Of a stretch of 64,000 bases of DNA, positions 11,749 through 57,059 are shown in pieces. This stretch comes from Utricularia gibba (lineage: Eukaryota; Streptophyta; Magnoliopsida; Lamiales; Lentibulariaceae), in contig NEEC01000002.1 of the NCBI GenBank assembly GCA_002189035.1, forward strand, positions 1,178,001-1,242,000, written 5' to 3'. Within the stretch, counting starts at the first letter, position 1. The number at the start of each line of letters is the position of its first letter. The translations under genes and the position numbers were made by a program. The notes under the pieces are model-generated. The model saw nothing but the letters and a program-made list of their open reading frames with translations. It searched no databases and was not told the DNA's origin.

Positions 11749-11830
11749 GTCGCTTTGGCCGAGTGGTTAAGGCGTGTGCCTGCTAAGTACATGGGGTTTC
11801 CCCGCGAGAGTTCGAATCTCTCAGGCGACG
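11749..11830 (+). tRNA. tRNA-Ser (GCU anticodon)
   Basis: An 82-base class II tRNA. The acceptor arm GTCGCTT pairs with AGGCGAC, leaving discriminator G at 11830. The D arm is GGCCGAGTGGTTAAGGC (A box). The anticodon loop CTGCTAA places GCT at 11782-11784. A long variable arm and the T arm GAGAGTTCGAATCTCTC (B box) complete it. No intron and no encoded CCA, as expected for a nuclear gene. A CAA motif just upstream (TTCAACAAGC) and a T run downstream fit plant Pol III genes. Confidence 0.95.
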
Positions 11831-21134: not shown

Positions 21135-23245
21135 ATGGAAAGGATCCCAGAATTGCGTTTGGTTGCCCACGAATCCTCGATTGCGGCGACATCGAGAAGG
21201 GCTTGCCTGAAAGCCTTTGAAATCGGGAAACCAGCAAATTCTCAACCACTGGAGCCCTTCGGGAATCCACATTCTTGGAAAGGGAAGAAGCTTTTACAGG
21301 AGGACGAAGAATGTGCTCCGAATGTTCTTTCTTATAAATTCAGTGATGATTCGTTTGAGGAATGTGGGTCTTCTTCTTTCCATGGTGTGACTCACCCCCC
21401 GAACCAGAAGACAGAGACACCATGAAACCAGTTCATGTACCCCTTGGGCATAGCAAAGGCGCAGGAAAATGTATGGCCACCCCCCGTTCCCTGAAGATTC
21501 TTCAATCCACTTGCCAGGGCCTAGAAAAATGGTTTCCCCCGTTGAAGATCCAGAACAGCTATCCACAATTTCCTCCCCCATGAAGGAATGCATATGGGAT
21601 TCTTCATTACCTCCTAGTGGCAATGTTAGCCCTTACAGCAGCATTGGCAGTAGCTGCGTTGCTAGATCCATGAGCATCGCCAATAGCAGCTGTGCTAGCA
21701 CGAGTCAAAGCGATGTGATAATGAGTGATGGCCTGCTGATGATTGACAAGAACTTCGAGTGTCGAAAAGGCAGCAGCACACTTGGGGATTCTCTTGAGAG
21801 CACAAAGACGAGCATCAGCCAAGGAAGTAACAGCAGTGCTGGTGTGAGTGATGATAGCAACTGGAGTAGCATTACAGGCGGCACAAATAAGCCCCATAAA
21901 GGAAATGATCCAAGATGGAAAGCTATACTTGTTGTTCATGCGCGTGATGGCATTTTAGGAATGAGCCATTTCAAGTTGTTGAGAAGGCTTGGGTGTGGTG
22001 ATATTGGAAGCGTGTATCTGTCTGAGCTTAGTGGGACTAAGTGTTTCTTTGCAATGAAAGTTATGGATAAAGCTTCCCTTTCTAGCAGGAACAAATTAAA
22101 CAGATCTCAGACAGAGAGAGAAATCCTACAGCTGCTGGATCATCCATTCTTGCCCACTTTGTACACTGATTTCGAAACGGACCGTTTTTCATGCTTAGTT
22201 ATGGAGTATTGTCCCGGTGGAGACCTCCACACACTCCGGCAACGACAACCGGGAAAACATTTCTCTGAGTATGCTGCAAAGTATGTGCATTGCCCTCTTT
22301 CTTTATCTTGAACTTGGATGGCTTACCAGAATAGGGAAGCGCGACTACTTCTCGTTTCACTGCTGCAGGTTTTATGCTGCTGAAGTTCTTCTGGCACTAG
22401 AATACCTTCATATGCTGGGTGTGATTTACAGAGACCTCAAACCTGAGAATGTTCTGGTTCGTGACGATGGACACATTATGCTCTCGGACTTCGATCTCTC
22501 TTTGAGATGCGCTGTTTCACCCACACTGATCCAAACTTCTGCTTCAAATCCACAAGGGGTTGCTGCATTCTGTGTAAAGCCAGCGTGCGTCGAACCAGCA
22601 TCCGTGTGCCTGCAGCCAACATGCTTCCTTCCTCGGATTCTCCCTACCAGAACCGAGAACAAGTCAAGGAAGTTCAAAGCACAGAGCAAGTTTTCTTCAG
22701 GGATCCTCCTCCCTGAGCTTGTTGCTGAACCAACTGCAGCACGTTCCATGTCATTCGTTGGGACACACGAATACTTGGCACCCGAAATCATCAAAGGAGA
22801 AGGGCATGGCAGCGCAGTGGACTGGTGGACATTTGGGATCTTCTTGCATGAGTTACTCTACGGCAAGACACCGTTCAAGGGCTCTGGGAATCGAGCAACG
22901 CTGTTCAACGTAGTCGGACAGCCGCTGAAGTTCCCAGAATCCCCGGCTACAAGCTACGCAAGTCGGGACCTGATCAGTGCACTTCTAGTGAAGGAGCCAC
23001 AGAACCGTCTCGGGGTGAAGCGCGGGGCAACTGAAATCAAACAGCACTCCTTCTTTGAGGGTGTTAACTGGGCTCTAATACGATGCAGCACCCCACCGGA
23101 GGTGCCGCCGAGGCCCGTTGAAGCCGATCTTTCGATCAAATTCCGGCCAGTAGACCTCCCCGGAACCGGGAGCCAAAGAGCAGCAGCACCCGTGGGATCT
23201 CAGCCACAGCCAGGAGGCAAGTTCCTGGACTTCGAGTTCTTTTAG
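21135..23245 (+). CDS. D6PKL: AGC-VIII protein kinase, D6PK-like
   Basis: The coding region runs from 21135, with one intron (22281-22368), to 23245, about 674 residues if two apparent single-base losses are allowed. These lie in six-C runs at 21395-21400 and 21480-21485. Across them the three frames read like one family N-terminus ([27 protein letters not shown], then [13 protein letters not shown]). The kinase domain starts near residue 279 with [13 protein letters not shown]. It has catalytic [13 protein letters not shown], the AGC-VIII hallmark DFD (LSDFDLS) instead of DFG, a long insertion before [16 protein letters not shown], and a C-terminal PIF motif DFEFF. D6PK kinases phosphorylate PIN auxin exporters at the plasma membrane. 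A 67-base intron could also bridge the first break, but the homopolymer reading matches the family better. Confidence 0.9.
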
Positions 23246-24573
23246 AATATGTTATCCAAGTATGATTCAATTCAACACACTCAAGTTCAGTTCAGAGCCA
23301 TCTGTATCTCTCATCCCTTGTATTTGCACTACATCTGAAGTGTGATTCAGGACACTCAGGTTCAGTTCAGAGCCATCTGTATCACATCCCATGTGTTTGT
23401 ACTAGCAACAGCCTGTCGGATTCTTACCATTTTTTTTTTTCCAAAGTCTGTTCGGGCAGGGCAGGAGAACCACCACAAGGTATTAATTATTTACTAATTT
23501 ATTTAAATTAATTAATAAATAAGACAATTGTCACGTCGTTGGGGGCCCACAACGTTTTCAACGCAAATGGGTAAAATAAAATGGAGACCCGACCCGTGAA
23601 ACTGTTTGAACCAACCGCCAACTGTCAAATATTTTGAGGTAATTTTAATTAATTGGAAAAAAATGAATTATGGACGGGATTTCATTTTTTGGTGATTTTA
23701 ACTGAAAATAGTATAGTATTAAAATAGTAATTAAAGTTAATTCATTTTATTTATAGAATTTTATTATTATAGAATTTAAAATACAATTCAATTCTGGGGT
23801 TCCGTGCCATTTAAAAAGACTGGAGTATGGCAGCAGGTCCGGCCCGGGAGTAATCTTGCGTGTAATATCTCAAGGATCCGAGAGGACGTACCACTGGCAG
23901 AGCCGGCGACTCGGACGGACGTGTCGGGAAGGTTCAGCCACCGTTTCAGGGCTTGGAGCATGCAAAGATCGACGCTTGAGGAAGTATTGGGGCTAATTCT
24001 GTTGTAATTGTTCCCGCTCGGTATTGATATGGGCTTTGTTGGAGGTGGGATCCATTTGACCAGTTAATTGTTGGAAATGCGTTAGGGTTTAAGATTTGAG
24101 CTTCCTTTATCTCGTTTTCCCGTCGGTTTTCTGCGTATACGTGTTTCTGGGATGGCATCTGTGTCTGCATTTCCCCTTTGACGCGTTTTTATCAAGGCCC
24201 GTTTTGGCTCGTTTAGTTCCCCCCGCCTCTTTGATTTATGATTCGTTTCGAAGCGGCGGGTATCAAGATTTATAGACAGGGAATTAGAGAAAGTGCCTTT
24301 AAGGATGCTATTTGGGTTGACTTTTATGATTACTTGGAGTCTGATCTGTTCCTGAGATACTCTCTGTTCTTTGCTTGCATTCACAAAACTTGAATCAGAA
24401 CGCTGCCAGTATATCCACCTATCATGCACTTTATTTTATGATTTATCTTTAATTATGTTTTTTCTTTATAACTTGGCACTGACTTGTGGTTTATCCATTT
24501 TGTGATCAGCAGATAGAGTGACTTTTGGTTTGGTGATGCTTTAACAAAGTTATCGTTTTGGTAAATACTCAGA
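23246..24573. other. Kinase 3' UTR, A/T-rich spacer and VIL leader
   Basis: The first 160 bases contain a tandem duplication (listed separately). An A/T-rich spacer follows at 23,470-23,780. Sequence from about 23,850 to 24,573 resembles a 5' UTR with an intron for the PHD gene. No other gene. Confidence 0.45.
23260..23403 (+). repeat. Tandem direct repeat in kinase 3' UTR
   Basis: Two diverged copies of about 65-70 bp, at 23260-23330 and 23340-23403, share blocks such as GTTCAGTTCAGAGCCATCTG. They lie just after the D6PK-like stop codon, so the mature transcript likely carries both. Confidence 0.8.
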
Positions 24574-26895
24574 ATGGCTGGACAACTTTCAAAGCCGCTT
24601 AAGAAATCTTCAAAGATGCATGTATTTGAGAAATCTTCATCGAGTCCTAAAGATCAGCATGCCCAGCCGAGGAAACAACTGAGGAAAAATGATAACCCTG
24701 TTCGGATCCCTCACATTGGAGAAACTTCTGTTGAATCAAAGAATTATAAATCATGGATTTGTCAAAATTCTGCATGTAGGGCTTCTTTATCAGCTGATGA
24801 TATGTTTTGCAAGAGGTGCTCTTGTTGTATTTGTCATTCATTTGATGACAATAAGGACCCTAGTCTTTGGTTGGAATGCGTCTCAGAATCAGGTGTAGGT
24901 GATGCCTGTGGGTCGTCTTGCCACATTGAGTGTGCCCTCCAACGTCATAAGGTTGGAGTTGTTGACTTGGGACTATTAATGCAGTTGGATGGAAGTTATT
25001 GCTGTGCTTCTTGTGGAAAAGTAACAGGAGTACTAGAGTAAGCTTCATCCCATGATAATAGTTAGTATCGGCTGCCTCCTTTTTCATTACAGATGCTTAT
25101 GTTGTTTGCTGATATCCTTGATGTCATTTTAAAGTCTTCCAAGCATTTAAACTGGAAGCCGGTGGGAGAATCGAGCACGTATAAAAAAATGATTTGAGTG
25201 ACATTCTGACCACTAAAATAATTTAATGAAATTATCTCTTGTTAACTTAGTATTATGGATTATGTTTCTTAATTTTGTGCTTGTACTGTATCAGGTCTTG
25301 GAAAAAGCAGCTAGTTATTGGCAAGGATGCTCGCCGAGTTGATACGCTATGCTACAGGGTTTTCCTGAGTTACAGGCTCCTTGATGGGACTTCAAAGTTT
25401 AGTGAGCTACACGAACTTGTTAGAGAGGCTAAAGCGAAGCTGGAGACTGATGTTGGTCCAATTGATGGAGTTTCAGCCAAGATGGCCAGGGGCATAGTTA
25501 GTAGACTCACTGTGGCAGCTGATGTACAGAGGCTGTGCTCTCTTGCAGTGGAAAAAGCTGATGAACTGATGGCCTCAAATTCTATCACTCCAATGGTTTT
25601 GAATGGTAACGTATTACACTTTTTTCTTAGTTTCATGATACATCTGCTACTTTAAATTGACGTGATTGTTTAAATGATGGACAGAGAGCTCACTTCCTGC
25701 AGCCTGCAGATTTGTTTTTGAGGAAGTTACACCTTCTTCGATTGTTGTCCTATTAATTGAATTATCAACTTCTTCATGTGTTGATATTAAGGGGTACAAA
25801 ATATGGTATTGTAAGGCCAAGGAAGAGGCATACCCCAAGGAGCCTGCTTGTGTCTTTCCCAGAGATCACAGGAGAATTTGGTTGTCCAATCTACGGCCTT
25901 GTACAGAGTATTCCGTACGTGTAGTTTCTTATACTGACAGTGGCGACCTGGGACACTCTGAAGCCAAGTGCTTCACGAAGAGTGTAGAAGTACTGTGCAA
26001 AAATTTCGACTCTTTGGCAGAAAGCCCAGAAGTTGACAATTCATCAAGTGGAGGAGCCTCTGGTGCAAAGCAGCTATCAAGGACCTCTGTTGATATAGAA
26101 TCTGATTCAGGATTCAGAGTGCGTGACCTTGGCAGGATCCTGAGTCTTGCCTTATCTCAAGATCGAGGCTGTTTTGAGTCGTTTTGCAGTGGCTCAAACA
26201 GGAAATGCATCTGTGTAGCCGATACTGTAAAGCAAGAAAAAAATGAACAAAGGCGCCTTCCTGTTTCGCGTCAGCTTGACTTGAATGTAGCTTCCGTGCC
26301 CGATCTAAATGAAGAGTTCACCCCACCAGTTGAGTATGGTAATGGGTGCACTTTCGGAGATGCAGATGATGATGGTTTTTCTCATGAAGTTCAGAGGGAT
26401 CACAAATTGGTTTCTTGCCTGAAGAGGAAATGCTGCACCAGTGGAGACAAGCAGGACTCCGACAGCACCCTGACTAATGGATCCCCCCTTCAACTTCATA
26501 CCGAACCAGGATGCTTAGATGAGAACTTCGAGTACTGCATAAAAATTATTCGTTGGATGGAATGCGAGGGCTACATACAGAAGGATTTTAGAATGAAACT
26601 GCTCACATGGTTCAGCCTTAGATCCACAGTGCAGGAGCGTAGAGTTGTCAACACATTCATTCAAACGTTAATCGATGATCCAAGTTGTTTGGCAGGGCAG
26701 CTACTAGACTCATTTTCTGACATCGTTTCCAACAAGAGGCAACGAAACGGTATCAGCATTTACATATAAACACGCATTCTAAAAACACACACTTGAGAAA
26801 TGCACCTTGCCATATTCCTTTTCTTGATCATGATCTTGATTCTCTGTGCAGGAGCCTTCCCCCAAGTTCCCACATGCGATTCATTTGACAGATGA
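24574..26895 (+). CDS. VIN3-like PHD protein (VRN5/VIL1 type)
   Basis: Four exons (24574-25037, 25295-25605, 25685-26749, 26852-26895) give 627 residues in one closed frame. A Cys-rich plant PHD finger lies at about residues 58-150 (WICQNSACRASL, MFCKRCSCCICHSFDD, CHIECAL). A helical block with SWKKQLVIGKDARRVD follows. A fibronectin type III domain starts near residue 260 (CRFVFEEVTPSSIVVLL, NLRPCTEYSVRV), and the C-terminal VID domain is at about 540-605 (IIRWMECEGYIQKDFRMKLL). VEL proteins join PRC2 through the VID oligomer and help silence targets such as FLC. Length and domain order fit VRN5/VIL1; a VIL2/VEL1 identity cannot be excluded by eye. Confidence 0.92.
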
Positions 26896-28173
26896 CAAAG
26901 CAGCTAGCAGATCCTAAACCCCCCTTGGTGAAAATAGCTTCTGATTTGACTTATATCTCATTAGGCCAACCTTATTGTTTGATCTGAGATCTCTCACGCA
27001 TTGTGAAGATCTACTTAACTATTCTAGTTTAACTGATGATCCCCTTTTGATTAGCAATCGAATTCTGCAACCCGGATGGATAAATCTTTTTTTCACCCTC
27101 ATTGTATCCCCCTCCCGACTGCATGTTTTGCCTCTCCCACAGGAAGCATTGGGAGCCAGGATGTGAAAATGGTGTACAATAGTTTCATGAAAATGGTGTT
27201 CGGATGGAGAGATTTGTTGTGAGATGGAGGGGTGGGGTGCTGTAGTAAATGAAAGGCAGGTAGGGGATCTGGTGTCACTGAATGCTAGAGATACGAAGGT
27301 CATTCACTCCTCTGAAAAAAGAAGTAGACGAAGAAGAAGATGCCTTTTTCACCAGTTTTGTTTAATTGGTGGCATTCAAGATTTTCAATACAAAAATATT
27401 GAGTAGTCGGCCAGCTCCCTCACATTAACTGCAATGCGACACCTACCTCTGCCTCAGTCCCACCACATACTCATCTGCAGAACTGTACATCACTCACTCG
27501 CATGCCCTCCCTCCAGAAAAACACACACACATGCATATAGCCGATGCACCCCAGTGGCCCAACCAGCCACACCATCTCTCTCATTCTAGCCCTTATCCGA
27601 TCACCATCCACCATTCTTCTTAATCAAGTTCTGATCTTTATGAGAAACCCATCAGGAAAGGAAGCCTTTACCATTGATCCAAGGCCGCCATTAATAGAAA
27701 CAGAGCTCCAGCACCTTCACCGATTGTATACCGCCATTGTTTACACCAGAATAAGCCCAACAGAGCTGAAATGAGGATCTCACATGGGTAACAGGTGTTA
27801 CATGTAAAGGATCCGTTTCATGGCTACTGCAGTTGAGAAACCGTGGAGTTTGAATTGATCGAGGTTATTATGGCACAGTTCTGTTCACATAACCAGTTCG
27901 GGATCTCCTATTTCAGCAGAGGCATCCAAAAAGCGCGACAAGGGTGTAAATGATGAAGAAGAAGTAGGTATTCATTCCTATGGAAGAGGATGCGAGCATA
28001 TGGGGAAGATAGCAAGACTAGAATTAGTAGCAATACAAAGCAGCATTCGCGAACACGACAACAGACAGACAGATATAGATATTCAGGCAGATTAGAAACC
28101 CTAATTTCAATGCAGCATCGACAGAAGGAGATTCAACAGTTCTGCATCCACAAAGCCCTAGCTCCTACAACTC
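26896..28173. other. Spacer between VIL and YABBY 3' ends
   Basis: This contains the 3' UTRs of two convergent genes and a short CA repeat near 27,520. No supported gene. Confidence 0.45.
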
Positions 28174-32551: not shown

Positions 32552-33816
32552 TCAGTCAGTTACTTGGACAGCAGTAGGATAAACTTTGGATGGAATGACC
32601 CTGCCACCAATCCAGAACCCAGGCATCACCATTAGGCCGACTTTTGGTTTCTGATCCTCATCTTTTGTGGTGAAGTTCTTCACCACACTTTCCATGTAAA
32701 TCTCTGAGTATTCCTCATCTTGTTTTACCTGAAATACCTTCGCAGGGGGTCAAAAGAATGTGCCAATCTATGGAGAAGCCAGATGGATTTGGCCAACTTC
32801 AAAAACGCCTGGTAAAATGCCGTTCTTGGATGTCCACCCCTGGTTATGAAGTTCCTGTGGTCCAAGTTCCCAAAGAATGATCCTTCCATTTTCTCGTGGA
32901 CTACTAGGATGTACTTGGACTGGCAAAATTTTCCGAATGATGCATCCACGCTTGAGCATGCAGCATCAAGAGGGTCAGCATCCCTTAAGGCCAGATACTG
33001 CTGAAAGAAGCTTTCTTTGTCCGGTGGATTCTCTAACACTAGCGAGAAGCCTTCGTCTTGAAATCCAATGAACATTTTCTGGCAAATATGCGACTCAAAG
33101 GCATATTTTTTGTGAGCCCTCTTAGCATAAGTGACACCTGGTTCGATGGCATTTGCTGCAGCATCCAGATCCCAATCAGCAGCTTTCAACATGTTCATCA
33201 ATGGCTTGGAGAAATCATGGACCGCCCTAGAAGCATCCTCTAATGCTAACTTAAAAAGATCAAAATTCAGCTCCACTGACGCAGGCCGTTGCTCACTTCC
33301 ACTCCCCTCAGATTCTTTTGTTGACAAGCCCCTGAGTTTCAGGTTCTTTTCAAGCTTCAGTTTTTTCTGATGCGCATCTTGAATTTGCTGCTCCAGCTGA
33401 AGAATCTCGGAGTCTTTATTCTGGATTTCAGATTGAAATTTCTTAACCATCACTTCATACGTCTTCAATAAGCTCTGCTGCTCCTGAATCTCGGCTGCTA
33501 ATCGTGAGTCTTGGGGAGAGATGCAAACAGGCTTGGGGTTGTTCTCTCTGTAAAAATGCTTTAGCTCGGACAAATTCTTTAGCTCAGCTACCACAAGCTT
33601 ATCAGCAGCTTGGATCTTTTCAGGATCATAGGGAGTGTGAGCAGCCTGAAGTTGTATGTACGCCGTCTTCAACGACGAGATGTTGGAGAATATCCTCGAT
33701 ATCAAGGATTCCATGGCTTCAGGAGTCTGATAATTGGCTTCCTCCATTGGTTGTGGGTGAACCTTTTGGTTGCTGGTATCACGAAGTTGGTTGTCTCTGA
33801 CTCCACTGTGTTGCAT
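32552..33816 (-). CDS. GIL1-like DUF641 protein with one apparent frameshift
   Basis: A single-exon gene for about 421 residues if one base is restored. The N-terminal DUF641 block is MESLISRIFSNISSLKTAYI, then AAHTPYDPEKIQAADK, followed by a coiled-coil at about 100-170. The C-terminal GIL1 region contains FESHICQKMF and GFWIGG near the end. At 32745-32749 a five-base G run (C on the coding strand) interrupts the frame. Adding one C converts a premature stop into PPAKVFQVKQDEEYSEIYME, which is what the family has, and the frame then stays open to the stop at 32552. GIL1 proteins control randomised hypocotyl growth downstream of phytochrome. The break may be a consensus error or a genuine truncation of the last 60 residues. 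Confidence 0.85.
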
Positions 33817-35216: not shown

Positions 35217-36510
35217 ATGAATTACATTGACGACGCGCCGTCGTCTCCCGGGAAGTTCAAGATGGAGAAATCTTCACACAAAAGGCTGCATTCTTCTCTT
35301 GCGAAGCTTACATTTTGGTCTCTTGTTTTTCTGGGTTTCACTTTCATCTACCTTTATCGCTTCAACGCTTCTTCTTCGTCCCACTATCAATCAGATTCGT
35401 CGAGGAGATCTCTAAGGACCACTTTCTATGGAGGCCCTGTATTCGAAAGGAAGGTTCAAGCATCGGCTAAAATGAGGCCGGGTCGAAGAATGTCTGTTTT
35501 GGTAACTGGGGCTGCAGGTTTTGTAGGCTCTCATGTCTCATTAGCTCTTAAGCGTAGAGGTGATGGCATTTTAGGGCTTGACAACTTCAATAATTACTAC
35601 GATCCTTCCTTGAAAAGGGCAAGGCAAGCCCTTTTGGAACGCAGTGGGTGTTTATTGTGGAGGGTGATATAAATGATGTTGAGTTATTGAAGAAGCTCTT
35701 CGACATTGTGCCTTTCACTCACGTTATGCATTTAGCAGCACAAGCTGGTGTGCGTTATGCCATGGAGAATCCAAGCTCTTATGTTCATAGCAACATTGCT
35801 GGGCTTGTTAGCCTTCTTGAGGTCTGTAAGAGTGCTAATCCTCAGCCTGCTATCGTGTGGGCATCCAGTAGCTCTGTTTATGGGTTGAATACAAAGGTTC
35901 CGTTTTCTGAGAAGGATAGAACTGATCAGCCAGCAAGTTTATATGCTGCTACTAAGAAGGCCGGGGAAGAGATTGCACACACATACAACCATATTTACGG
36001 GCTTTCCCTAACCGGTTTGAGGTTCTTTACCGTTTATGGACCATGGGGTAGGCCGGACATGGCATACTTCTTCTTCACTAGGAATATTTTGAAGGGTAAA
36101 GGCATTCCTATATTTGAGGCACCGAATCATGGGACAGTTGCTCGGGATTTCACCTTCATTGAGGATATAGTGAAGGGTTGTCTGGCTGCTTTGGATACGG
36201 CTGAGGAAAGCACCGGAAGTGGAGGGAAGAAGAAGGGCCGGCTCAGCTGCGAGTATACAACCTGGGGAACACATCTCCTGTCCCTGTAGCTGACCTTGTA
36301 AGCATTTTGGAGAAGTTGCTAAAGGTGAAGGCCAATAGATTGGTTACCAAATTGCCAAGAAACGGTGATGTACAGTTTACACATGCCAACATAAGTTTGG
36401 CTCAGAGAGAACTTGGCTACAAGCCCACTACTGATCTACACGCAGGGCTGAAGAAGTTTGTCCACTGGTACGTGAATTACTATGCTGATGGCAAGAGAAG
36501 TGCTCACTGA
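35217..36510 (+). CDS. GAE: UDP-glucuronate 4-epimerase with two apparent frameshifts
   Basis: An intronless coding region of about 431 residues if two single-base losses are restored. It converts UDP-glucuronate to UDP-galacturonate for pectin, as a type II Golgi membrane protein. A cytosolic tail of about 30 residues precedes a membrane anchor at about 31-48. The NAD-binding motif GAAGFVGS is at 98-105, with SSSSVYG and the catalytic YxxxK (SLYAATKKAG, near 241). Frame breaks occur at a GGG run at 35646-35648 (joining ALLERSG to VFIVEGDIND) and at GGG 36235-36237 (joining KKKG to PAQLRVYNLGNTSPVPVADL). Each needs one extra G. All active-site blocks are intact on either side. The ATG directly follows a 5' UTR splice acceptor. 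Confidence 0.9.
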
Positions 36511-37499: not shown

Positions 37500-38261
37500 G
37501 CGCATTCTCGTGGCCGGTTTCTTGCCCTCACTTCGAGTGTCGCCCCCGAGGCGTCACGTTGATCAGAGCCGGTGCGATCATTTTCAATGACGTCGCGGAT
37601 CTCGCCGTCGGGCTCCTAGTGAACGTCCTGCGGAAAATCAGCCCTGGAATTCGCTACTTAGGAGCGGATTGTGGATCTTAGATGGTGATTCTCACTTGGC
37701 TTCAAGGTACGCGCAAAATTAACGACCCCCAGATATCAAACAAAGAATCTATCTTTTGTTTGATGATCGTAGTTGGGTGGCAAGAAATGTGGAATTTTTG
37801 GCCTGGGAAGCATCGGGATAGCAGTAGCAAAGAATGCCCAATCCCTTGGATGTCAGATACTATACAATTCAAGGAACAAGAAGCACTCAGTCCCATACAA
37901 ATTCTGTAGACATCCAAGAACCAGGCTTGGATTCGGATTCCTGATCCTCTACTGTGCTTTGAACAACGTAACTTGGAATATAATCAACGGTGTGATCTCC
38001 TGATTGTGGACATTCTCGTGGGTCAGTGATTGATGAGAAGGCACTGGTGCAGTTCTTGAAGTGCGGGGAAATTGTGGGTGCTGGTTTGGTCGTCTTTGAG
38101 ACAGAGCCCCTGTCTTCAAGATAGCTACGTGGTGTTGTCCCAGCATGGTGCTGTGTTCACACAGGAGTCTTTCAAAGCACTGGTCGTGTTTCTCTGTGGG
38201 AATTCGGACAACTTCTTCAAGAACAAGCCTTTCCGTAATTTCCTTCCTCTTGAGGAGTAGA
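37500..38261 (+). pseudogene. Degenerate hydroxypyruvate-reductase-like (HPR3 type) pseudogene
   Basis: Fragments of a D-isomer 2-hydroxyacid dehydrogenase appear in order but in changing frames. They are FNDVADLAVGLLVNVLRKIS near 37,590; the NAD-binding fold GGKKCGIFGLGSIGIAVAKN at about 37,774-37,833; LYCALNNVTWNIIN; SVIDEKALVQFLK and GAGLVVFETEP near 38,020-38,110; and VVLSQHGAVFTQESFKAL to a stop at 38,261. The substrate and catalytic segments between them are missing or stop-ridden, and the N-terminal third is not recognisable. Breaks are many and not confined to homopolymers, unlike the neighbouring genes, so this is decay rather than sequencing error. A functional paralog presumably exists elsewhere. 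Confidence 0.82.
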
Positions 38262-39238
38262 TTTCACAGAAAAGTCTATTAAGAACGCAGATTTGTCGAT
38301 TGTTTGAAATAAAAAAATGTAGTAGATGGCCACCAGAGAAGTGTCTTCTTCTAACGTTCAGCTGACTCAGCTCCACATCTCTCGCACCGACGAGGGATTT
38401 TCTGTGCTTCTGTTCTTAGCTAGCTCATCGTACACACACAGCATGGGAGCTGTTCACACTGCCTGAAGTGAATTCTAACTTGTCAATACAAGGGACATGA
38501 TTAAGGTTAGGAAATGGTCTAGGCTGCCCTGTTAGATCTTCCCTCCGTTGACCGTACTTGTTACAGTCAAGTGTGCTTTGCTGAAATGTCCGGTGTGAAT
38601 GAATGGCTATGGTGAGTACGGTCACTTTGTGGTCGCCGCCCCCAACTGCGGACAAAATCAAACCTCGCGTGCGATCTCAATGCCTGGAACATGGCGGGCC
38701 ATTTATGGCTTGCGCCAAAAACTGCAATAAATTGTTTGGAGACGTACGGACGTTTTACAGGCACAAGCTGCGGTAACAAGACAAGAGCCTGTAACTTCAC
38801 GGCCTGGTTTCTGTAGTCTGTATTCAGGACAGCAACAAGCATATTTTTTTATTAATTATACGTCGTACCTGCAGTTACTGCGTTCTAAAGAAAAAAACAT
38901 TTCCAATTTCCTTCTGCTCGTTGAGAGGACCTGATCGGGACGGGGGATCGGACAAGTCTTCCTTCTCTCGGATATGGGGAAGTTGCGGTACATGGGAGCT
39001 CTGCTTGGTACTTAGTATTTCATCGCCTTTTTTTGTTTTTCTGATAACGGGGGCGTAATTTAGTATGCTGGTCGCTTCTTTTTTCTGCTGGGTACTGTTT
39101 ATGGGAATTGATTCATGGGGCTCTACTTGGGTTTTCTGGTCTGTGCCGGGTATCATGTTTTGGGTTTGTGATGGTGTTGCAGAGATTTGGGTTAGGGTTT
39201 TGAAGGTGAACTGAAATCTGCGGGAATTCATCTCTGAG
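38262..39238. other. Spacer before SPPL
   Basis: No coding features apart from short random frames. The last 200 bases are probably the protease 5' UTR. Confidence 0.45.
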
Positions 39239-42200
39239 ATGTGCGCTTTTCGTGCATCTTCTGTTCTTGTGTTATTTTTTTTTTTTTTTGATTCTGGTCA
39301 ATTTTTTCGTAGGATGTTTTGTTCTTCTCCTACTTGAAAGCTGTGTGGTGTTTGCCAGCGACATAGTTCACCCGGATGAGAATGGCCCGAAGAGGCCTGG
39401 GTGTGATAACAACTTCGTACTGGTAAGGGAAGTTATGATGTTCGTACACCATTTTCTGTAGCCTATCGTTGAAAGTAATTTTCTTTCAGCTGAGTTTGAT
39501 AAGCAGTAGTTATCTGACATGATTGTGGTTCTATGAAGGGAAATCACACTCAGAAACTGTGGTTCCACTTATTGTATTGCCTCGTTTGTTTTGATAAGTA
39601 GTTTTATGAAATCCCTGCTAATTGGAAATGACTGTTTCTTGATAGGTAAAAGTGCCAATCTGGATCGATGGGAAAGAGGAAATGGAGTTTGTTGGAGTTG
39701 GAGCTAGATTTGGTCCCACTTTGGAATCAAAGGAAAGGCGAGCAAACCAAACAACTGTTGCGTTTGCTGAACCACTTGATTGCTGCAGTAAGCCAAGGAA
39801 TAAGGTTTGTGGTCTATGTAACCTTTAGGAAACCATCGCCTTTTTTAGTGAAGTAAAGACATTCTTCTCACCTTGGGGTTGTTTTCGCTGCCTCAGTTGA
39901 CAGGTGAGGCTATCTTGGTGTACCGAGGAAACTGCAGTTTTGTTACAAAAGCAAATGTTGCAGAAGATGCTGGTGCTTCAGCTCTAATCATTATAAACAA
40001 CCAGACAGGTTTCTTTTTTCATTGTTAGTGTTGCGAAGAAAAAAAAGTGTAATTATACTAAAGATCCCTTTTCTGTTTTTATGTCATTTTTTTAACCGGG
40101 CACCTTCAGAACTCTTGAAGATGGTTTGTGATGAAAATGAGACTGATTTGACGATTGGTATACCTGTTGTCATGCTTCCACAAGATGCTGGCCAGAGCTT
40201 GAATCAGAGCATGTCTACAAACTCACATGGTAAGTTCTCCTTTACAGCATCAGAAGAAAAAAATATCATCTTTGCCTGTTATATCCATTCAGAGTTTATA
40301 TGGTGTTCTGCAGTACAGATTTACATGACTCGTATGCCACATAATCTTGCTTTTATTCTCAGTATCCATCCAAATTTACTCCCCAAAGCGCCCATTGGTT
40401 GACGTTGCTGAAGTTTTTCTTTGGCTAATGGCTGTTTCTACCGTCTTATGTGCTTCTTATTGGTCTGCATGGAGCGCCAGAGAAGCAGCCACTGAGCTAG
40501 AGAAGCTCCTGAAGGTATTAAAATATTCAATATCTTTCAATCAGCTTCCAAAAGTGCAGCTGCATTGTGATTGGTGATCCATGTAAACATGCAGGATGAT
40601 ACTGATGGGTACTCTACAAGAGTGGAACGTCATTCAAGTGCTGTTATAGACATCAGTACAACCTCCACAATTGCTTTTGTGGTGATCGCATCATGTTTCT
40701 TGGTTATGCTCTACAAGCTGATGTCCCATGTCTTCATTGAGATACTCGTTGTTGTATTCTGCCTTGGTGGCTTTGAGGTACACAAGAATTTTTCAGATGG
40801 AAAGTCACCTCTATATTTTTTACTCCCTGCCTTTAGAAACATCTGATTTGCTGGTGTAAACTGCGCAGGGTTTGCTAACTTGTCTAGTGGCTTTGCTATC
40901 ACGGTATGTGACTTGTTTCCGAATTGTTCCATGTGTTCTGATAGCTTCATTATTAGAGTTCAATGTCAATTTTTTGGTACAAATCTCCATTGAATGAGAA
41001 AACATATAGCTTTTGAGGAAGAGGAGCCTTATGTGTGTTGAATTTTTTTTCATTACAGTTTCCGATTGTTCGAACGTCTTGCCGAATCTTATGTCGAAGT
41101 ACCATTGCTTGGGCCTGTATCTTATCTTACAGTAGCCACTGCCCCATTTTGTGCCATAGCAGCAGGTTTATGGGGAGTGTTCCATACATTTCCTTACGCA
41201 TGGATCGGCCAGGACATACTTGTAAGAATGAAATTCAGATGCTTAAATATCCATTTGATCATCCGGAGTGAACTGTTTCTGAGTAAAAAAATCCCATGCT
41301 TCACCTTTGAAACAGGGGATTGCATTGATAACCACCGTGCTCCAGATCGTGCGAGTCCCAAACCTTAAGGTTTAGTTTTCATGGGTCACTTTGCAAACAA
41401 GTGATATCTCTGAAATCCTTGCATTCTGACTCGAAGTTTCCAATGGTTGCTCAGGTGGGAACACTCCTGCTCTCCTGTGCATTGTTGTATGACATATTCT
41501 GGGTGTTCGTATCGAAATGGTGGTTCCACAGGAGTGTGATGATAGTGGTAAGTCTCCATTCCCAGACCATGGATTGGGAGCTCATTGATCCTCGCTTCCA
41601 CCCCTTCATTTCCCTTGTCCCGCAGGTGGCTCGTGGCGACGGAAGCGGGGAAGACGGCATCCCGATGCTCCTCAAGATCCCCGGTTGTTCGACCCCTGGG
41701 GTGGCTACAGCATCATTGGATTTGGCGATATCATCTTGCCTGGACTGGTAGTTGCATTTTCACTGAGGTATCATCATCTCCTTCATACCAGTTCCTTCAC
41801 ACACATCAAGAACACTCCCTGTGATCGGAAAAGAATGACTTGATGCTGCATTCTAGGCACGATTTTCTTTCTCGTAGAGGTTTGAAATCTGGGTACTTCC
41901 TCTGGGCGATGCTCGCCTACGGTTTCGGTATGATCCTTCTGCCGTCTCGTTATCGAATACGAGCCGTCGATCACTTTGTGGGCTTCTTGGCGCAGGTCTT
42001 CTGGTTACATACGTGGCCCTGAATCTGATGGACGGCCATGGCCAGCCGGCGTTGCTGTACATCGTTCCGTTCACTCTAGGTATTTCACCCAGCCACCTGG
42101 ATTTTCCATATCGTTTCGTAATGCTGTCCGCTGTTCAGGCACGCTGATCACGTTGGCGAACAAGAGAGGGGAGCTGAGTCATCTATGGAGCATGCGAGGA

Positions 42201-42284
42201 GCCGGCGGGGGTGTCGCCGCCGGTGGCCGGTGCCCACACGTCCGGCTTCAGCAGGAGGAAGAAGGCAGCAAAGTGAAGTCCTAG
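39239..42284 (+). CDS. SPPL: Signal-peptide-peptidase-like intramembrane protease
   Basis: Fourteen exons, including a 35-base exon at 40869-40903, give about 565 residues. A lumenal protease-associated (PA) domain comes first ([46 protein letters not shown]). Nine hydrophobic segments follow. The aspartyl protease motifs are YD (LLYDIFWVF), GxGD ([11 protein letters not shown]) and PAL ([11 protein letters not shown]). This is the PA-containing SPPL2-5 class, cleaving type II membrane proteins in endosomes or vacuole. Two homopolymers disturb the frame. The 15-T run at 39275-39289 lies in the signal peptide; 14 or 17 T would connect the ATG at 39239. The four-C run at 41679-41682 needs one more C to give [13 protein letters not shown]. 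Confidence 0.9.
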
Positions 42285-43541
42285 ATTCAGGTGAATCTAT
42301 TTCCTCTGTTAAACACAAGTCACATAAAATAGATATGTAGTTTTCCACTTTTTTTTGACAAAAAAAAACCTATTTTTATTTTAATATTTTCATTCCTAAT
42401 GAGTTTAATTATTTTGCATTTTTATTTTTGATTGTAAAGTATTGGTTGATAGAATATTTTAATTCATTTGGGATGATGAGATATCAATTGAGATTAATTT
42501 TGTAATTGAATTTTTATGATAAATTTTTAAATACTTTTTGAATACAAATAATGTGAGTGAAATAATTTTTTAAGAAAAAATAATTTTTTTATTAAATTCA
42601 TAATAAATATATATTTTTTAAAATGAATAATACTTAATATTCTGTATGTCTTAATTTATTATAGATATAATAATTATTATAATTAATAATATATTTTATT
42701 TAGATAAACATGTATTATATAATTAAAATTAAAATTTGTTTGATACATAATTTTTTAACATACATGTGCTAGAATAATATGATATTTGGATATATAGGTT
42801 GAAAACAAATACTTTATAAATTGAATTACTTAGTAAAACTCACATAAAAGTTGATTTTTAAAATATATAGTTCGGATTTTTGTACAATAAGAAAACAATG
42901 ATATATTGTTAAACTAGTATATCAAAAATATATTGTTATCAATATATGAATGTTTAAAAACTAGAAACAATTTATTAAATACAATATTATATTAAGTTGC
43001 TATCAATGGAATAAAAGTGATTTATTTCAATGGAAAAAAAGAATCAATTCTGTTGAATGCAGCTTTTACATGGATTCTTTGAATTGAAGGATCTAAAGAT
43101 TTCGGTTTCCAGCAACTGTTAAAAGTGAAAATAATAATAAAAAAGGGAATTATGGTGAAACTTAAAAGGTGTTTGTTTGATCTAATTTACCTTTTGCCTT
43201 TTTTTTTTGAAAGGAAGAAAATAAAAGGAGTGAAACATCAAAGCGAGCGGTGGGAGACAGTGAATTCACACTCGGACATCCATTTGCAGTACTCCCCCCA
43301 TTTATTCCTCCACCGGTAACTCGTCGGAGCAATTTTACGCGGCATTCAAGTTTAGTCACGCTCAGATCTACAAACTACGCCTCCGGTGCACGTCGGAGCG
43401 CTGCTGTTGAGGCGATTTGTGTCTCTGTTCCGTTCTTTCCTGTACGGCAACCGTTTGCGTTGAGCTCGTCCGCCGTGTATTTTTGCAGATCAGAATTTCT
43501 GTGATTTCCGTTTGCATGGTGGTTTTTTTTTACGGTTTACG
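42285..43541. other. A/T-rich spacer and kinase promoter
   Basis: From 42,340 to 43,140 the sequence is over three quarters A/T with no open frame or repeat ends that I can see. The final 300 bases are the leader of the receptor-like kinase. Confidence 0.5.
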
Positions 43542-49548: not shown

Positions 49549-52500
49549 ATGAGCTTAGAAACTGAAGCGTTGAGGCCTTCTGGCATTGGTGCTGAGAAGC
49601 TTGATGAAGCCTTAAAGTAATTAAATTTTTAAGCAACCCATGTGGTGTTTACTATTTTCATAGCTTTTCTCACTGGGTTGAAGGTAAATGGGTTTCTTTG
49701 GTGACCTAGGAAACCGAGACGGTCGTATACTCGGGAATTCCTCTTGTCACTGAGTGATTTGGACGTGTGCAAGAAGTTACCAAGTGGTTTTGATGAATCT
49801 CTTCTCAGGTAATCTCTTCTTTAATTTCTGTGCTTATTTAAAAGCTATCTCCATCCGCTAGGTTATATGTTACAGTGAATTCGGGGATGGTGCGCAAAGT
49901 TTGCATGATCGATTACGAGTTCCAGGGAGCCACCATTTTCAAGGCCTAAGAAGGAATGATCATGGATCATCACCCCCAATCGGTGGGATTCTTCTAATTT
50001 CACTGCAGGCAGTTTTGGGAAATCGGGAAGTCATTCTTTCGTTCAGAGTGATCGAGATAGTGACTCTCAGTCAGACCGTGATTCAGGTTGTTTGTGGAAT
50101 TATTTTAAGTCTACATTCTCTGTTTAGGACCTTATTTGTTCTTCATATTGGTGGCAAAACATCTGTTCGCGTTCGGTTCACCCTGTCTACTAACTGTAAT
50201 CTCTGGTTGATATTAAATCTCTGAAGTTGGTTACTCTATTCTTGTGTAGAATCTGGAAGACACAGATGGCAATCTAGACGATCTTGGCAAGCCACTGAGC
50301 ATGATGGTCTTCTAGGCAGTGGCTCTTCTTCTAGACTTACTGGATATTCACCTGGTACATCTGCTCCAAAGATAAAAGCAAATGACAACTTCCCACTTAA
50401 GAAAAGCAGTGAGCCATATCAGCCTCCAAGACCGTACAAGGTTGCTTGAACCTTTCCAAGTACCCAAAACGTTTAGCTCCCCTTGTTGGATTAACATGTG
50501 CTTTTATCATGAGGTGATGATATTTATGACACTGCCTGTATCCACATTTTTCATTCAGGCGGTGCCATATTCAAAAAGAGATGCAGAGTCTAACGATGAA
50601 ACTTTTGGTTCATCTGACTGCATTAGCGAGGATAGGGCAGAAGAGGAGAGGAGGAGGAGAGGTATTATTAGTATGTTTTCTTCTGACACAACTGTGCCAT
50701 TAACTTAATACATCTCGTGCTTCCTGTTTCAATTGCAGCATCTTTTGAGCAGATTAGGAAGGAGCAGCTAAAGGCTCTCCAAGAGAAGCAGACACCAAAA
50801 ATTGAGCATAATGTGGATGGTGTGTTTGACATTTTTGTACAGCATGATAATAAAAAGGGGGATGTAGGATCATCCATCAATAAGGATGGAGTTGTAGCTG
50901 TGGACCAGACATGGAAGAATCTATCCGGAAAATGTTCTGCAGTCTTGTCTTCTCCTGGATATAGGCCACTTGTTCCACCTGGTTTTAAGAACAGTATTCT
51001 GGAGAGGACTCCGGGATCGAAATCCAACCATGTTTTGTTAGAGGTATACTCCGATTTTGTGCAACTCCTTTTAGCAGCAACCTTTTCCTAGGCCAACATC
51101 TTTTTCCAGTTCATTGGTTTATATATCCTTGCTTCCTTTTTTCTATTTTAGTGTCCTTACATTCGTGCTCAGTCCATGGGTTGTGAATAATGGAATTAGA
51201 GCTTTAACAGAGAATGACATCTGACTATTCCTTTTTGTGTTACGTTGAAATTAGTTTTTTCACATGTATAACTAATTCAAATGCTAATATCTTACAATGA
51301 CTTCATCTGTTCGTTGTCCATTACTTTTTTTTTTGTTCGTGGTCTGGTGATTCTGTTACAAATATCATTTTCATATGTTGAACATGTCATCAAATTTTCA
51401 GTAGTTACTTTGACCCCTCAGAACTTATTATGTTTTGAAGGAAGGGATTTCGACCGAAGAAGACGCTCTGGATAGTGAGTCCAGTTTTCAGTATGGCACC
51501 ACTGGTTTGGTACGATCAGCAAATAAAAAATCAGAGGCACAAGGTCACTTGACTCATGCTTCAAGTGATGGACCCTTGGAAGACCCTGGAATCCTTAAAC
51601 TCAGTCCTCATATACTGAATGAAAAGGCAGCTTTCAACAGCGATAGTCGGCCTTCAAGTTCACTTTTGGAAACACTGTTTTGGGGCCCAGCAGCCACTGA
51701 TAGCCATGAAGTTCGTAGTATATCTGAGGTTTCTACTTCTTTGGTCCCTTCTCGTCATATTTCTTGTTTTGATAAAAAAAAAATTCATCATTTTAAGGCT
51801 TCCTTCCACTGTCTTCATGTCTAGAATGAAGGCTGTAAGCCTCATGACGCAAGGAGTGCAGGTTCTGTGCAGTCATCAAGGTTCTCCCAGGGCCTTTTGG
51901 AGGCAGGTATGGTAATCTTCTCCTGTATGTTTGAACTGTATGATTTTTCTGTCCTCTTCCAGAAAAAGAAAGAAAAAAAAATAATACTCTGTAGTTTTAG
52001 TAACCCCTGAGTGTTGGCGTTCTTGCAGAAGCTAAATCTGCTGATGAGCTATCCTCTGGGAGGCCTGATGATATATTGTCTTTAATAGTAAGTGGTGGTA
52101 AGAGCAGATACCAGGTTTCGGGTGCCGAAACAACTGAGCACTCCGATGCGGTCTTTCTAAACTTTGAACAGCCGAGGAAGCTTTTGTCCACTTCGTCTCC
52201 AGCAGATCGTGTGTTCAATGAGCAGGCATCTGTACATAGTAAAGAAAAAAGCCTCCCAACCGTGCTTACGTGCGAAGACCTTGAAAACTCAATTTTGACG
52301 GAATACAGCGCACAATCAACTAGCAGCCTGCCACCTCCAAATTCTTGGAGTGCTTACCAGAATGTGGAGGTGTCAAAGGAACATGTGGACGATAATGCTT
52401 CTCTACACCTGCTATCTCTGTTGCAGAGGAACTCTGATCAGACTAAGGATGAGGAAATTTCAGTTGCAAATGCCAATTTATCCGAAACTCCAGATGCCCG

Positions 52501-53678
52501 GAGTACTATTTCAGTGGCCACTGAGTCTAAAGAGAATGATACAAGCGTCGTGAGTTCAGCAAACTCACTCACCCTTGAAGCGTTATTTGGTTCTGCTTTT
52601 ATGAAGGAGCTTCAGTCAGCTGAAGCACCCGTTTCTATCCAGGGGGGCTTGGCCAGGTCTGCAGAAGTCCAAGCACCGCAGCCCCATGGAATTCCTTTTC
52701 CTATGGATGCTAGGATTTCATCAGCAGTTAATCCTGCCAACCTTCAAAGTCCCGGCAATGGCCAGGTGTTGCATCCTTTCAATCACCTGAATTCTGCTGA
52801 GAATTTACCTGGTTATGTTGATTCGAAGCTTGAGTGGACTTCGGTTCATCCTCATGCCAAGGATGCCCCAGAGTATGGGAGAGCTGATGGCAGTACTGAA
52901 TTCCAGGTGCCTGTTGACAGCATAATGCCCTCTAATGGCCCCCATGGGTATCAGATGATGGCACGAATGTCAGCTAATTCCCTAAACCATGAACGCTTCT
53001 CTGCAAATGCACTCGGCCATGTGGGCAACATGCTAGGGCCAGAGACAATGGCTCCTAAACATGGCAACTTGGAGCCAGAACTTCATTACCGCATGCAGCA
53101 TTTGAATATGGCCCAGGGTAGGCCATTACACGAGTTTCCCATGGAGTCCTCGCGTGCAAGCAGGGCGTCGCAGGTGGAAGTATTGGGTCCTGAGACGTTT
53201 TATAATCATGGTTCCTTAGCCGCTAATAGGCATTTTCCTAGCAACGTGCATCCATTCCATGATCCGAACATCAGGATTCCTAGGTCTGATGTTGCATCTC
53301 ATCATCCTATCCTGCATCAGATGCGGATTCCAGGAAATTATAGCTCACAGATGATGGCTGACCCACCCAGAGCCGGCAGCGGTTTCCATCAGGAAAGCGC
53401 CTCCAGCCTTCCTTTCTCGCCACAACAGCGAGTTCTTGGTCATCTTCTTCCCAGTACACCAGGTAACAAAACCTCTACATGATGTGCTGAGATGCTAGTT
53501 TTGGAATATCTGCGGTAGAATACTGAATTGCTTCCTCCGTACCGTCCCACTCACCTTTCCAGGGCCAGGCGTCATTCACCGGAATCGCAATCCGGAGATT
53601 GAAGTGGAGAAAAGTGCGCACTTTAAGCAGGCTCATCACTTCCCTCCCGGTCACAACCAAGGGATCCCATGGGCGTGA
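49549..53678 (+). CDS. eIF4E-binding protein, CBE1 (4E-T-like) type
   Basis: Eleven exons, from ATG 49549 to stop 53678, close in frame at 956 residues (the Arabidopsis relative At4g01290 is of similar size). The canonical cap-binding motif YTREFLL (Y-x4-L-L) is at residues 29-35, followed by SLSDLDVCKKLPSGFDESLL. The rest is low-complexity and Ser/Pro/Gly-rich; FEQIRKEQLKALQEKQ is a short helix, and ALFGSAFMKELQSAEAPVS and HPFHDPNIRIPRSDVASHH appear later. The last exon adds PGVIHRNRNPEIEVEKSAHF and ends in PWA. CBE1 binds eIF4E/eIFiso4E at 5' caps and affects mRNA stability. Assignment rests on the 4E motif plus overall layout, not on a database search. Confidence 0.85.
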
Positions 53679-54099
53679 GGTACAATGTTACATGGGGTCT
53701 GAGGAGTAGGTAGCTCGTCACTGCTACATAGGCATCACCGGCCCTTGATTCTTGTTGGTAGTAGTCACACCCTAACAGCACAGTACAGCATGCCTGAAAG
53801 TCCTTTTTGTTCACCACTCTTGTTGGTGGCTGTAAAGGATTAATGGTGTTTCGGAGTTCACTTTCCCTTCAGCGAACTGCCTCTTCTGTGAATGTGATTT
53901 GCACTGTTACTTCTCCCTCACCTTCTTATCAGCGGACTCTCCTTGATCTTGTGTTGTTTTTTTATAGATAGGAAGGGAACTGGAACAAGGCAGTTAACTA
54001 ACAAGTAGAAATTAACATACATGGTCTGCGACTGCAACATGTTTATTCCCGAGAGATGAAAGTGATGTTAACAGAACATGCTTTTGTTGCCATCTCCTG
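53679..54099. other. Spacer between convergent genes
   Basis: 3' UTRs of CBE1 (left) and the endosulfine gene (right). Nothing else is supported. Confidence 0.5.
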
Positions 54100-54989
54100 C
54101 TACTTCGCAGTGCCATCCTCGGACGCACCGGGGGAACCATCTGCGGAGATGAGGTATGGTTAGTTAACTTTTATACTACAGAAGATGTAAAAAAGCTTCA
54201 CCATCACCTTCTCCTTCTGATGGGGCATACTGAGACTTGCGATACCGCGTCTGCTGCTGCGTTGGCTAGTAAGCAAGCATAGATGCATTACGGGAAGACG
54301 AACAGAATGAGGAAATATGTGGAATGCGCAGGCACCAAAGAGCCAGTATTTCTCCTACCTGTAACTTGGGCCTCAGAGCTTCAAGAGGTCCTTTGGGTTT
54401 CTCTACACCTTGCTGTGTCAGAGTGTGAAGAAAGTTAGATCCCAGGCCAGGGCTCAAATCAATACTACATAAACGACATGAAGTTAAAAGGCATCCAACA
54501 CTAGATCCGCATCGGCCTTCTTAGTTTTTCTTCTCCTTTTAGGAAGTCAACATTAATGATCACACGAAATCTGACACCCGGTCTCTCAGGTGTATGCTGG
54601 GGAGATTCATATGGAGTGAATGAACGGATTAGTGGAGGTACCTTTCCCAATGCCCAGTCAGCAGAGTCGAAATACGCGCGTTCATGATCCTGAAATGAAA
54701 CAATGAATGTGTGGAAACGTGACTAAACAAATCTCGAGTAAAGCGAAGCACATTGGTTTCGAAAGGACCTTCGATATCAATGGCGGTTTCTTGGGCATTA
54801 TTCCACCGTACTTCTTCTTAATTGCATCCTCCTAGAAAAAAAAAAAGCAGTTAACATTTGTGTGAGGCAAATAGTATGAATCGAAAAGGAGTAGACACGG
54901 ACTTCCTGCTTGGTAACTGTCACTGCTTTTTGAGCATCCTCCATAACAACTTCATTCTCTTCTCTTGCATCCTCACCATGGCTCGACAT
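54100..54989 (-). CDS. Endosulfine (ENSA/ARPP19-type PP2A inhibitor)
   Basis: Six exons (54903-54989, 54769-54831, 54642-54689, 54359-54412, 54202-54265, 54100-54140) give 118 residues. The invariant endosulfine core FDSADW is intact, flanked by KKKYGGIMPKKPPLISKDHE and QGVEKPKGPLEALRPKLQ. In animals and yeast the serine in this core is phosphorylated by Greatwall kinase and the protein then inhibits PP2A-B55; the plant role is presumed similar. The C-terminus TRYRKSQYAPSEGEGD plus a 13-codon last exon is acidic. All introns are GT-AG. If the last intron were retained, the protein would end a few residues later in FLHLL. Confidence 0.9.
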
Positions 54990-56418
54990 ATTGATGCCAC
55001 CGTAATACGAAGCAACAGCTTCTAATTTCTAGAACGTGACACACGAATCAAGAAGAACATGGAATCAACAATCTCACAGCATTGCAGAATAGCTCGTATC
55101 GAGTAACAGTGAATTGAGTGGGAAATGAATGAATGTATGAGCGAGCAACTGAAATCCAATCCGGAAACTCCAGATTCCGTAACAAGTAGCACTAAATTTT
55201 TTAATTCCAGAACCAATGAAACAAATCCATGGCGTCAAACCTAGATTCGAAATCAACAACCGTGGTACAGCATAAGATTCACCAAACAGATCCCGAAGTT
55301 ACCGCCACTCATTACGCAAACAATCTCTACCTATTCAACGATCCTAATTCGGCGAATCAACGCAACGACAGCAGGCCCCTAGCACAAACGTCTCAGCGAT
55401 TTTGATGCAGAAAACAGTGACATTAAACCAAGATACCGTAACAGAAATCCGAAAATCAACAAGGTTTCGATCGGTCGAAGAGATTACCAGGAAAACCAAT
55501 TCACGAATCCGTCCAAGAGAGGAGAGAGCAGCAACGTCAAGGCTCTCCAATGCACAACTGGAAAATTGAAATATTTACATCGCTCAAATCACTCCCTGGA
55601 ATCTGCATAGTGGACGGACGGTGAAGGCAACGAATGTAAATGACATCCATGCCCTTGAACGCCTCACCCAAAATAAAATAAATTAAAAAGGAAAAAAGAT
55701 CATTGGTTTTTAATAAATTCCTTTCCGAATCAAGCCCTATTGGATTATGGGATTCTGGTTCTCATTCAGATCGTATTTTTAAACAAAAACAAATAAAAAA
55801 TTATTCTAATGCGAAATTAAAAAAATGGAAAAATAAATAAACTGACCAGTGACCGGTGGCCGTCGTTTCAAGGAAATTACTATTTGGCCCACAAGTCGCA
55901 TCAGACCAATCAACGTTCGCTGTAGAGGCGGCTTGGTGTGATATTAACAATTTTTAAATAAAATAATCGTTGGCGGGCTTCTTCATTCGGGTGATATGGA
56001 TGATGACCCGGTCAATCAAATGCACTCTGCTGACGTCATTTACATTCTAGAAGAAGAATGGGTGACGTAAGGTATTATAACTAAACTAACCAGCTGTCAA
56101 GGATGTTGTTAATTAACTGACCGTTATGCAACGGGGGGTGGAGTGGAGGACCCGCTAATTACCATTTCAAAGCATCTGCTTTCTCAATCACAGATGCCCC
56201 TCTTTGAAAATATCTTGGTAGTTGTTCACTTGTTTGAAAGGTCCTGCGGGTCTACCGATGAAGAAAGAAGCTGTGAAAAGTCACGAGGCGGCGGGCCATG
56301 GATTGTATGCAGCGTTGTTGGATTGACCAGAACTGTTGGAATCTCGCACTACATAACCACCGATGCCATGAAGCAGGACGCTCATCGGAGTACAGAGTGA
56401 AGCAGAGGAGGAGAGAAG
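54990..56418. other. Divergent promoter, endosulfine and NHL genes
   Basis: The endosulfine leader and likely 5' UTR intron occupy up to about 55,600; an A/T-rich core follows. Between 56,031 and 56,070 there are two TGACG motifs. No gene is seen. Confidence 0.45.
56031..56070. promoter_or_regulatory. Paired TGACG elements upstream of the NHL gene
   Basis: TGACGTCA at 56031-56038 and TGACGTAA at 56063-56070 lie 32 bp apart, about 350-390 bp upstream of the LEA_2/NHL start. TGACG pairs are as-1-like sites for TGA bZIP factors. Between them a TTCTAGAA palindrome is also present. Function is inferred. Confidence 0.4.
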
Positions 56419-57059
56419 ATGGAGACATCGGAGCAGGCTCGCACAGTCGGTCCCCACGCCAACGGGATCTCCGATCCGGCGAAACTCCGACGCAAAAAGT
56501 GGCTTAAGTACCTCGGTTACCTCGCCATACTCCTCACTGTGGAAGCCATCGTTGTGGTCATCCTGTTCCTCACGATTTTGCGAGTATATACTCCAACCGT
56601 CACCCTGGACGCCGTCCGGATCGAGAATTTCCCAGCGATCAATGGCACCGACTTTCCGCCGCCTGGCACAAACATCACTCTCGTCTCTGATTTCACGGTG
56701 AGGAACCGTAACTTCGGGGCGTTCAATTTCCCGGCGAGAAATACCACCATCTACTACTACAACACCCAGATCGCGCAGTCCCTGGGTCCTCGGGGAGCGC
56801 GAGGTCACGCAACTCGCGATCGATCAGCACGACGGTGGATATCCCGTTGGATCAACTGGCGGCGCAGAGGCAGAATCTGGTGTCGGATCTCGGGTCGGGT
56901 CGAATCGTTTTCGGTAGCTCCACGAGATTCAGGGGGAGAGTGAGGATTTTTATCATCATCAACAGGCGCGTGACCGCCTCCACGAACTGCCTCATCACCG
57001 TCGATGTTGCGTCGCGGGCGGTTGTTAATCACGACTGCAATCCGACGATAAGGTTTTGA
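56419..57059 (+). CDS. LEA_2 / NDR1-HIN1-like (NHL) protein with one apparent frameshift
   Basis: An intronless gene, about 213 residues if one base is restored. A basic cytosolic N-terminus (LRRKKWLKYLGYL) is followed by a membrane helix at about 37-58 and the LEA_2 beta domain (VTLDAVRIENFPAINGTDF, NFGAFNFPARNTTIYYY, STTVDIPLDQLAAQRQNLV, ending DCNPTIRF). NHL proteins sit at the plasma membrane and act in defence or stress. Near 56,776-56,800 the frame shifts: the IYYYNTQIAQ part and the GSARSRNSRSISTTVDIP part are one family domain but in different frames. One extra G at the CAG before TCCCTGGG would join them. Confidence 0.85.

Follow-up and report, generated by a model that had tools for sequence, protein, structure and literature searches.

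One-base frame breaks at short G/C runs in five Utricularia gibba genes are very probably consensus errors of the assembly

Results

Seven frame breaks in five genes

Five genes of Utricularia gibba are interrupted by seven frame breaks in a 64,000-nucleotide stretch (hereafter the window; G000:C451:1178001-1242000, in an assembly of 100.09 Mb and 516 contigs). These breaks are very probably consensus errors of the assembly, in which G/C runs, mostly of 3-6 bases, were recorded one base too short, with the genes intact in the plant. Each break was located exactly in the sequence and compared with an ohnologous block or with paralogs. At all seven sites we found a one-base length change at or beside a homopolymer, and the earlier note was accurate in placing the breaks within short G/C runs or next to them. 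Its observation of clean protein similarity on both sides is also borne out: selection is intact before and after the breaks, with dN/dS values of 0.04-0.36 on both sides (codon comparison with the duplicates, very short pieces left out). In addition, Pfam domains match the pieces flanking the breaks, each in its proper frame, namely DUF641 and GIL1_IRKI_C in GIL1, Epimerase in GAE and Peptidase_A22B in SPPL.

The ohnologous reference was C2:5578-5652 kb of the same genome. Much of the 20-60 kb portion of the window is collinear with it at ~70-84% DNA identity, and the block is apparently the product of an old duplication. In window coordinates, the ohnologous stretch spans 20941-60753, much of it duplicated. 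When the assembly was searched for another copy of the region covered by the window, only the 70-84% ohnologous block on C2 and the paralogs were recovered.

DNA alignments to the C2 block and to the GAE paralogs showed that the window copy is one base short at six of the seven sites. The exception is GIL1, the duplicate of which has the same short run; there, the conserved downstream frame reveals the break. The seven lesions are all one-base losses in G/C. This is not a chance outcome, since the coding set examined contains more A/T runs of at least 3 bases (697) than G/C runs of at least 3 bases (513). The five genes contain one-base losses only; neither insertions nor nonsense substitutions occur in them.

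The D6PK/PK5-like AGC kinase gene (21135-23245, + strand; exons about 21135-22281 and 22370-23245) matches Pkinase (PF00069, E 1.4e-14) and has its ohnolog at C2:5578.6-5580.7 kb, with 84% DNA identity. Its frame is one base short at two C6 runs. At the first, 21395-21400, the ohnolog is one base longer; at the second, 21480-21485, the frame is conserved on either side. The piece between the two runs has the same reading as the ohnolog, i.e. a frame shared by both copies. For the outer pieces, dN/dS is 0.31 before the breaks and 0.11 after them, the latter over the 266 codons beyond 21480-21485. A further break of the open reading frame near 22282 was rejected as a lesion, as it corresponds to a GT..AG intron (~22282-22369).

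The GIL1/IRKI-like gene (DUF641; 32552-33816, - strand; ohnolog 88%) has one break, at a G5 run (C5 on the gene strand; 32745-32749) that is equally short in the ohnolog. PF04859 matches before the break (E 2.3e-46) and PF24994 (GIL1_IRKI_C) after it (E 8.3e-17). Both duplicates keep the conserved C-terminal frame past the C5 run (PPAKVFQVKQDEEYSE.. versus PPVKVFQVKRDAEYSE..), with 82.8% identity over the 64 codons downstream of the break. Over these codons, the tail shows 12 non-synonymous versus 11 synonymous changes; dN/dS is 0.10 before the break and 0.26 after it. The shared short run implies either that the error arose at this sequence on two occasions or that both copies inherited the break from their ancestor. 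The latter is disfavoured because the tail is conserved (dN/dS 0.26).

The UDP-glucuronate 4-epimerase (GAE)-like gene (35217-36510, + strand, single exon) is broken twice, at G3 runs. At 35646-35648, three of its four paralogs (L013-L016) have one additional base and the fourth is resolved within ~10 bases; at 36235-36237, paralog L013 has G4. Overall, the four paralogs are one base longer at, or a few bases from, both break sites. Across the three pieces, dN/dS is 0.15, 0.04 and 0.07. The Epimerase domain (PF01370) is found in the middle piece with an E value of 8e-42, and the last piece matches only weakly. The closest copy lies elsewhere on C451, at 1344842-1346154.

The multi-exon signal peptide peptidase-like (SPPL) gene (38974-42285, ends approximate, + strand) was assigned from PF04258 (Peptidase_A22B), which is found on either side of the break (E 4.2e-11 and 7e-9), and from its ohnolog. 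The break lies at a C4 run (41679-41682) that is C5 in the ohnolog. Conserved flanks surround it, with zero amino-acid changes relative to the duplicate over 48 codons. An apparent stop in exon 1 was rejected as a disabling change; it sits past a GT splice donor.

The last gene (56419-57059, + strand; ohnolog 82% DNA identity) would belong to the NHL/LEA-2-like family, a name suggested by resemblance and by its duplicate; neither half gave a significant Pfam match. Its frame is one base short at a G4 run (56792-56795), and the ohnolog has one extra base after G4. The 86 codons past the break are conserved, with a dN/dS of 0.36, compared to 0.17 before it.

Exon-intron boundaries misread as frame breaks would be another source of such interruptions, and the nearby frame changes at D6PK (~22282-22369) and in SPPL exon 1 are indeed introns. 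At all seven sites, however, conserved sequence runs on both sides and leaves no space for an intron. Introns are therefore excluded as the explanation of the seven breaks.

A true pseudogene in the window

The earlier note had also stated that no other disabling changes occur. This holds for the five named genes, where the apparent SPPL stop and the D6PK frame break are due to splicing, but not for the whole window, which contains a true pseudogene. This hydroxypyruvate/glyoxylate reductase-like sequence (37534-38257, + strand) serves as an internal contrast. Compared with the exon that remains open in its duplicate, the ohnolog at C2:5607.7-5608.5 kb, it carries 14 indels, each 1-15 bases long, over a length of 724 bases, has 71% identity and contains many stops. 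This gene has decayed for real and is not an assembly artefact. Elsewhere in the window, a tRNA gene is located at 11749-11830 on the + strand (Rfam RF00005, 57.8 bits).

The seven breaks could likewise be real, very recent loss-of-function deletions, in incipient pseudogenes or heterozygous null alleles. The breaks do stand in the assembled sequence, the window does contain a pseudogene, and real one-base deletions favour homopolymers. Nevertheless, we consider such recent loss very unlikely. Every clear lesion is a one-base loss, and the five genes lack insertions and nonsense substitutions; the true pseudogene at 37534-38257 shows a mixture of lesions. What the seven sites share with plant pseudogenes is an interrupted reading frame. 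They differ by their single lesion type and by selection, as the relaxation past a lesion that is a hallmark of pseudogenes is not seen at the window breaks (dN/dS 0.04-0.36 on both sides). They differ too in that, at other loci, an intact copy stands on a second contig.

Loci assembled twice disagree mainly in run length

Small contigs that overlap large ones offer a direct test, at loci other than the window sites themselves. We compared five contig pairs: C377/C321, C81/C451, C251/C244, C316/C412 and C422/C414. C377 and C321, compared over 7.6 kb, show 0 substitutions; they differ by one base at five places, each of them a homopolymer. That the same locus, assembled twice, differs in run length only argues further against recent real loss. 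The pairs C81/C451, C251/C244 and C316/C412 show 2, 4 and 4 substitutions versus 12, 8 and 13 indels, respectively; most of the differences are one-base changes in run length. Some longer indels, which may represent real allelic variation, also occur in an AT-rich part of C316/C412. The C422/C414 pair is noisier, as C414 ends there.

Disagreement climbs with run length, and the rise comes later for A/T than for G/C. In the five pairs pooled, G/C runs of 2, 3, 4 and 5 bases are discordant in 0.46, 1.2, 5.1 and 24.3% of cases (9/37 at length 5), and A/T runs of 3, 4 and 5 bases in 0.55, 1.2 and 2.0%, reaching 16% at length 7; some of the short-run entries stem from substitutions or longer indels. 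When a run difference falls inside a gene, the longer run corresponds to the intact frame in the three cases looked at. A GRAS gene is open over 615 codons in the C412 copy and over 412 codons in the C316 copy, which has one G less. The C321 kinase starts MGCSNLRYCFWVLLLLDLACC..IDCGSS, and the C377 copy, with one G less, reaches a stop after 5 codons. Finally, the frame of a GRAS gene runs uninterrupted across the entire domain on C422 and is broken in the copy on C414.

That twice-assembled loci disagree in run length would also be expected if G/C runs truly contracted at a raised rate, for example through weak mismatch repair, and varied among haplotypes or cells. Loss of mismatch repair, though, is expected to strike long A/T runs most, in both directions. 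Here, G/C runs fare worse than A/T runs of equal length, even at 3-5 bases, and selection would not have stayed intact with that many genes broken. The genome contains several MutS-type genes, and it is short G/C runs that are preferentially affected; a defect of repair is therefore unlikely, and we give real contraction even less credit than recent loss. It appears just as improbable that an unusual bias of mutation or repair has truly contracted short G/C runs widely in the coding sequence of the species, which would then tolerate or correct the shifted frames. Under-called homopolymers, which the earlier note had preferred over real decay, are thus favoured by the run-length differences between twice-assembled loci, by the genome-wide recurrence of the lesion described below and by the intact selection.

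The small contigs C377, C81, C251, C316 and C422 (L001-L010) are near-exact duplicates of parts of large contigs; such redundant copies therefore inflate gene counts in the assembly. At the right end of C414 (L008), the last few kb are far more indel-rich than the matching C422 sequence, probably reflecting low coverage at the contig end. C414 also carries two ~690-base insertions with ATACATC-like repeats at their ends, and the C422 copy is without them (L007/L008).

The same lesion recurs across the genome

A check of conserved families across the genome recovered the same lesion type in GRAS, KCS, BAHD and UGT genes and in the duplicates. Breaks were assigned to runs by eye, from translations. 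Outside the window, we counted 30 further clear breaks, spread over many contigs and not confined to one region; all are one-base losses, nearly all clearly at G/C, and no insertions were found among the frame breaks counted.

Many of the ~44 GRAS genes, which are mostly single-exon, show at least two matches in different frames. Frame-tolerant alignment to intact relatives gave 18 clear breaks in 12 of these genes, all one-base losses at G/C, with an adjacent A run equally possible in one or two of them. The G/C-rich codons of the GGPP motif are hit repeatedly, in several GRAS genes. The KCS, BAHD and UGT genes contributed nine breaks, all one-base losses at G/C, and the ohnologous block three (D6PK C6, GIL1 C5 and NHL C3), all one-base losses. 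Loci L025, L028, L030, L033, L037, L038, L050, L053 and L056 were not counted, as they represent introns, damage at contig ends, probably real decay or unresolved cases.

The artefact is therefore assembly-wide, with about a quarter of the GRAS genes carrying a clear break in the domain alone. Were the losses real and recent, this quarter would have to be newly broken, and by one lesion type.

Discussion

A known kind of consensus error

Our data support a kind of consensus error already known from early long-read assemblies as the cause, and not biology. What we observed directly is the kind of lesion, how it varies with base and run length, its occurrence in one of two assemblies of a given locus (at other loci) and intact selection on both sides of the breaks. 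Regarding technology and polishing, we infer that the source is probably a long-read assembly of the PacBio CLR type, incompletely polished with accurate short reads. G/C runs, mostly 3-6 bases long, would thus have entered the consensus one base short, and the genes themselves would be intact in the plant.

When a PacBio and Quiver assembly of azuki bean was compared with short reads, conflicts were found at 38,889 deletions, 8,611 insertions and 1,631 substitutions, with indels mostly at homopolymers (PMC4663752). All 91 Sanger-checked indel sites sided with the short reads, and more than 1,000 genes would have been disrupted (PMC4663752). The U. gibba errors share with these their one-base size, the dominance of deletions, the location in homopolymers, the large excess over substitutions and the breaking of frames. 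In contrast to azuki bean, where errors include insertions, all clear coding breaks here are losses, and at equal length G/C runs are clearly more error-prone than A/T runs. In nanopore bacterial assemblies, the gene-fragmenting errors described with Kastor are also deletions tied to runs of 2-8 bases, most often 4-5; there, A/T runs gave most errors, whereas here G/C runs do (PMC12007338). The present work adds a direct test on twice-assembled loci, discordance rates tabulated by run length, recurrence of the lesion across the genome, a short run shared by both GIL1 duplicates, the contrast with a true pseudogene and the DCL3 check.

Gene losses and the case of DCL3

Since the lesion recurs throughout the genome, apparent gene losses need checking, and, should this be the U. 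gibba long-read assembly, counts of genes, pseudogenes and losses drawn from it call for a frame-tolerant check. A truncation of DCL3 has been published for this species (PMC8333044). In the DCL3-like gene on C213 (L068, C213:2753001-2763000), both RNase III domains are present and the helicase part is absent; no Dicer-dimer match was found in it. We rejected the same artefact as an explanation of the published truncation. By eye, no helicase open reading frame was seen upstream, and that region is filled by an SR-protein-like gene on the opposite strand. On both grounds, the DCL3 truncation looks real and not like a run-length error.
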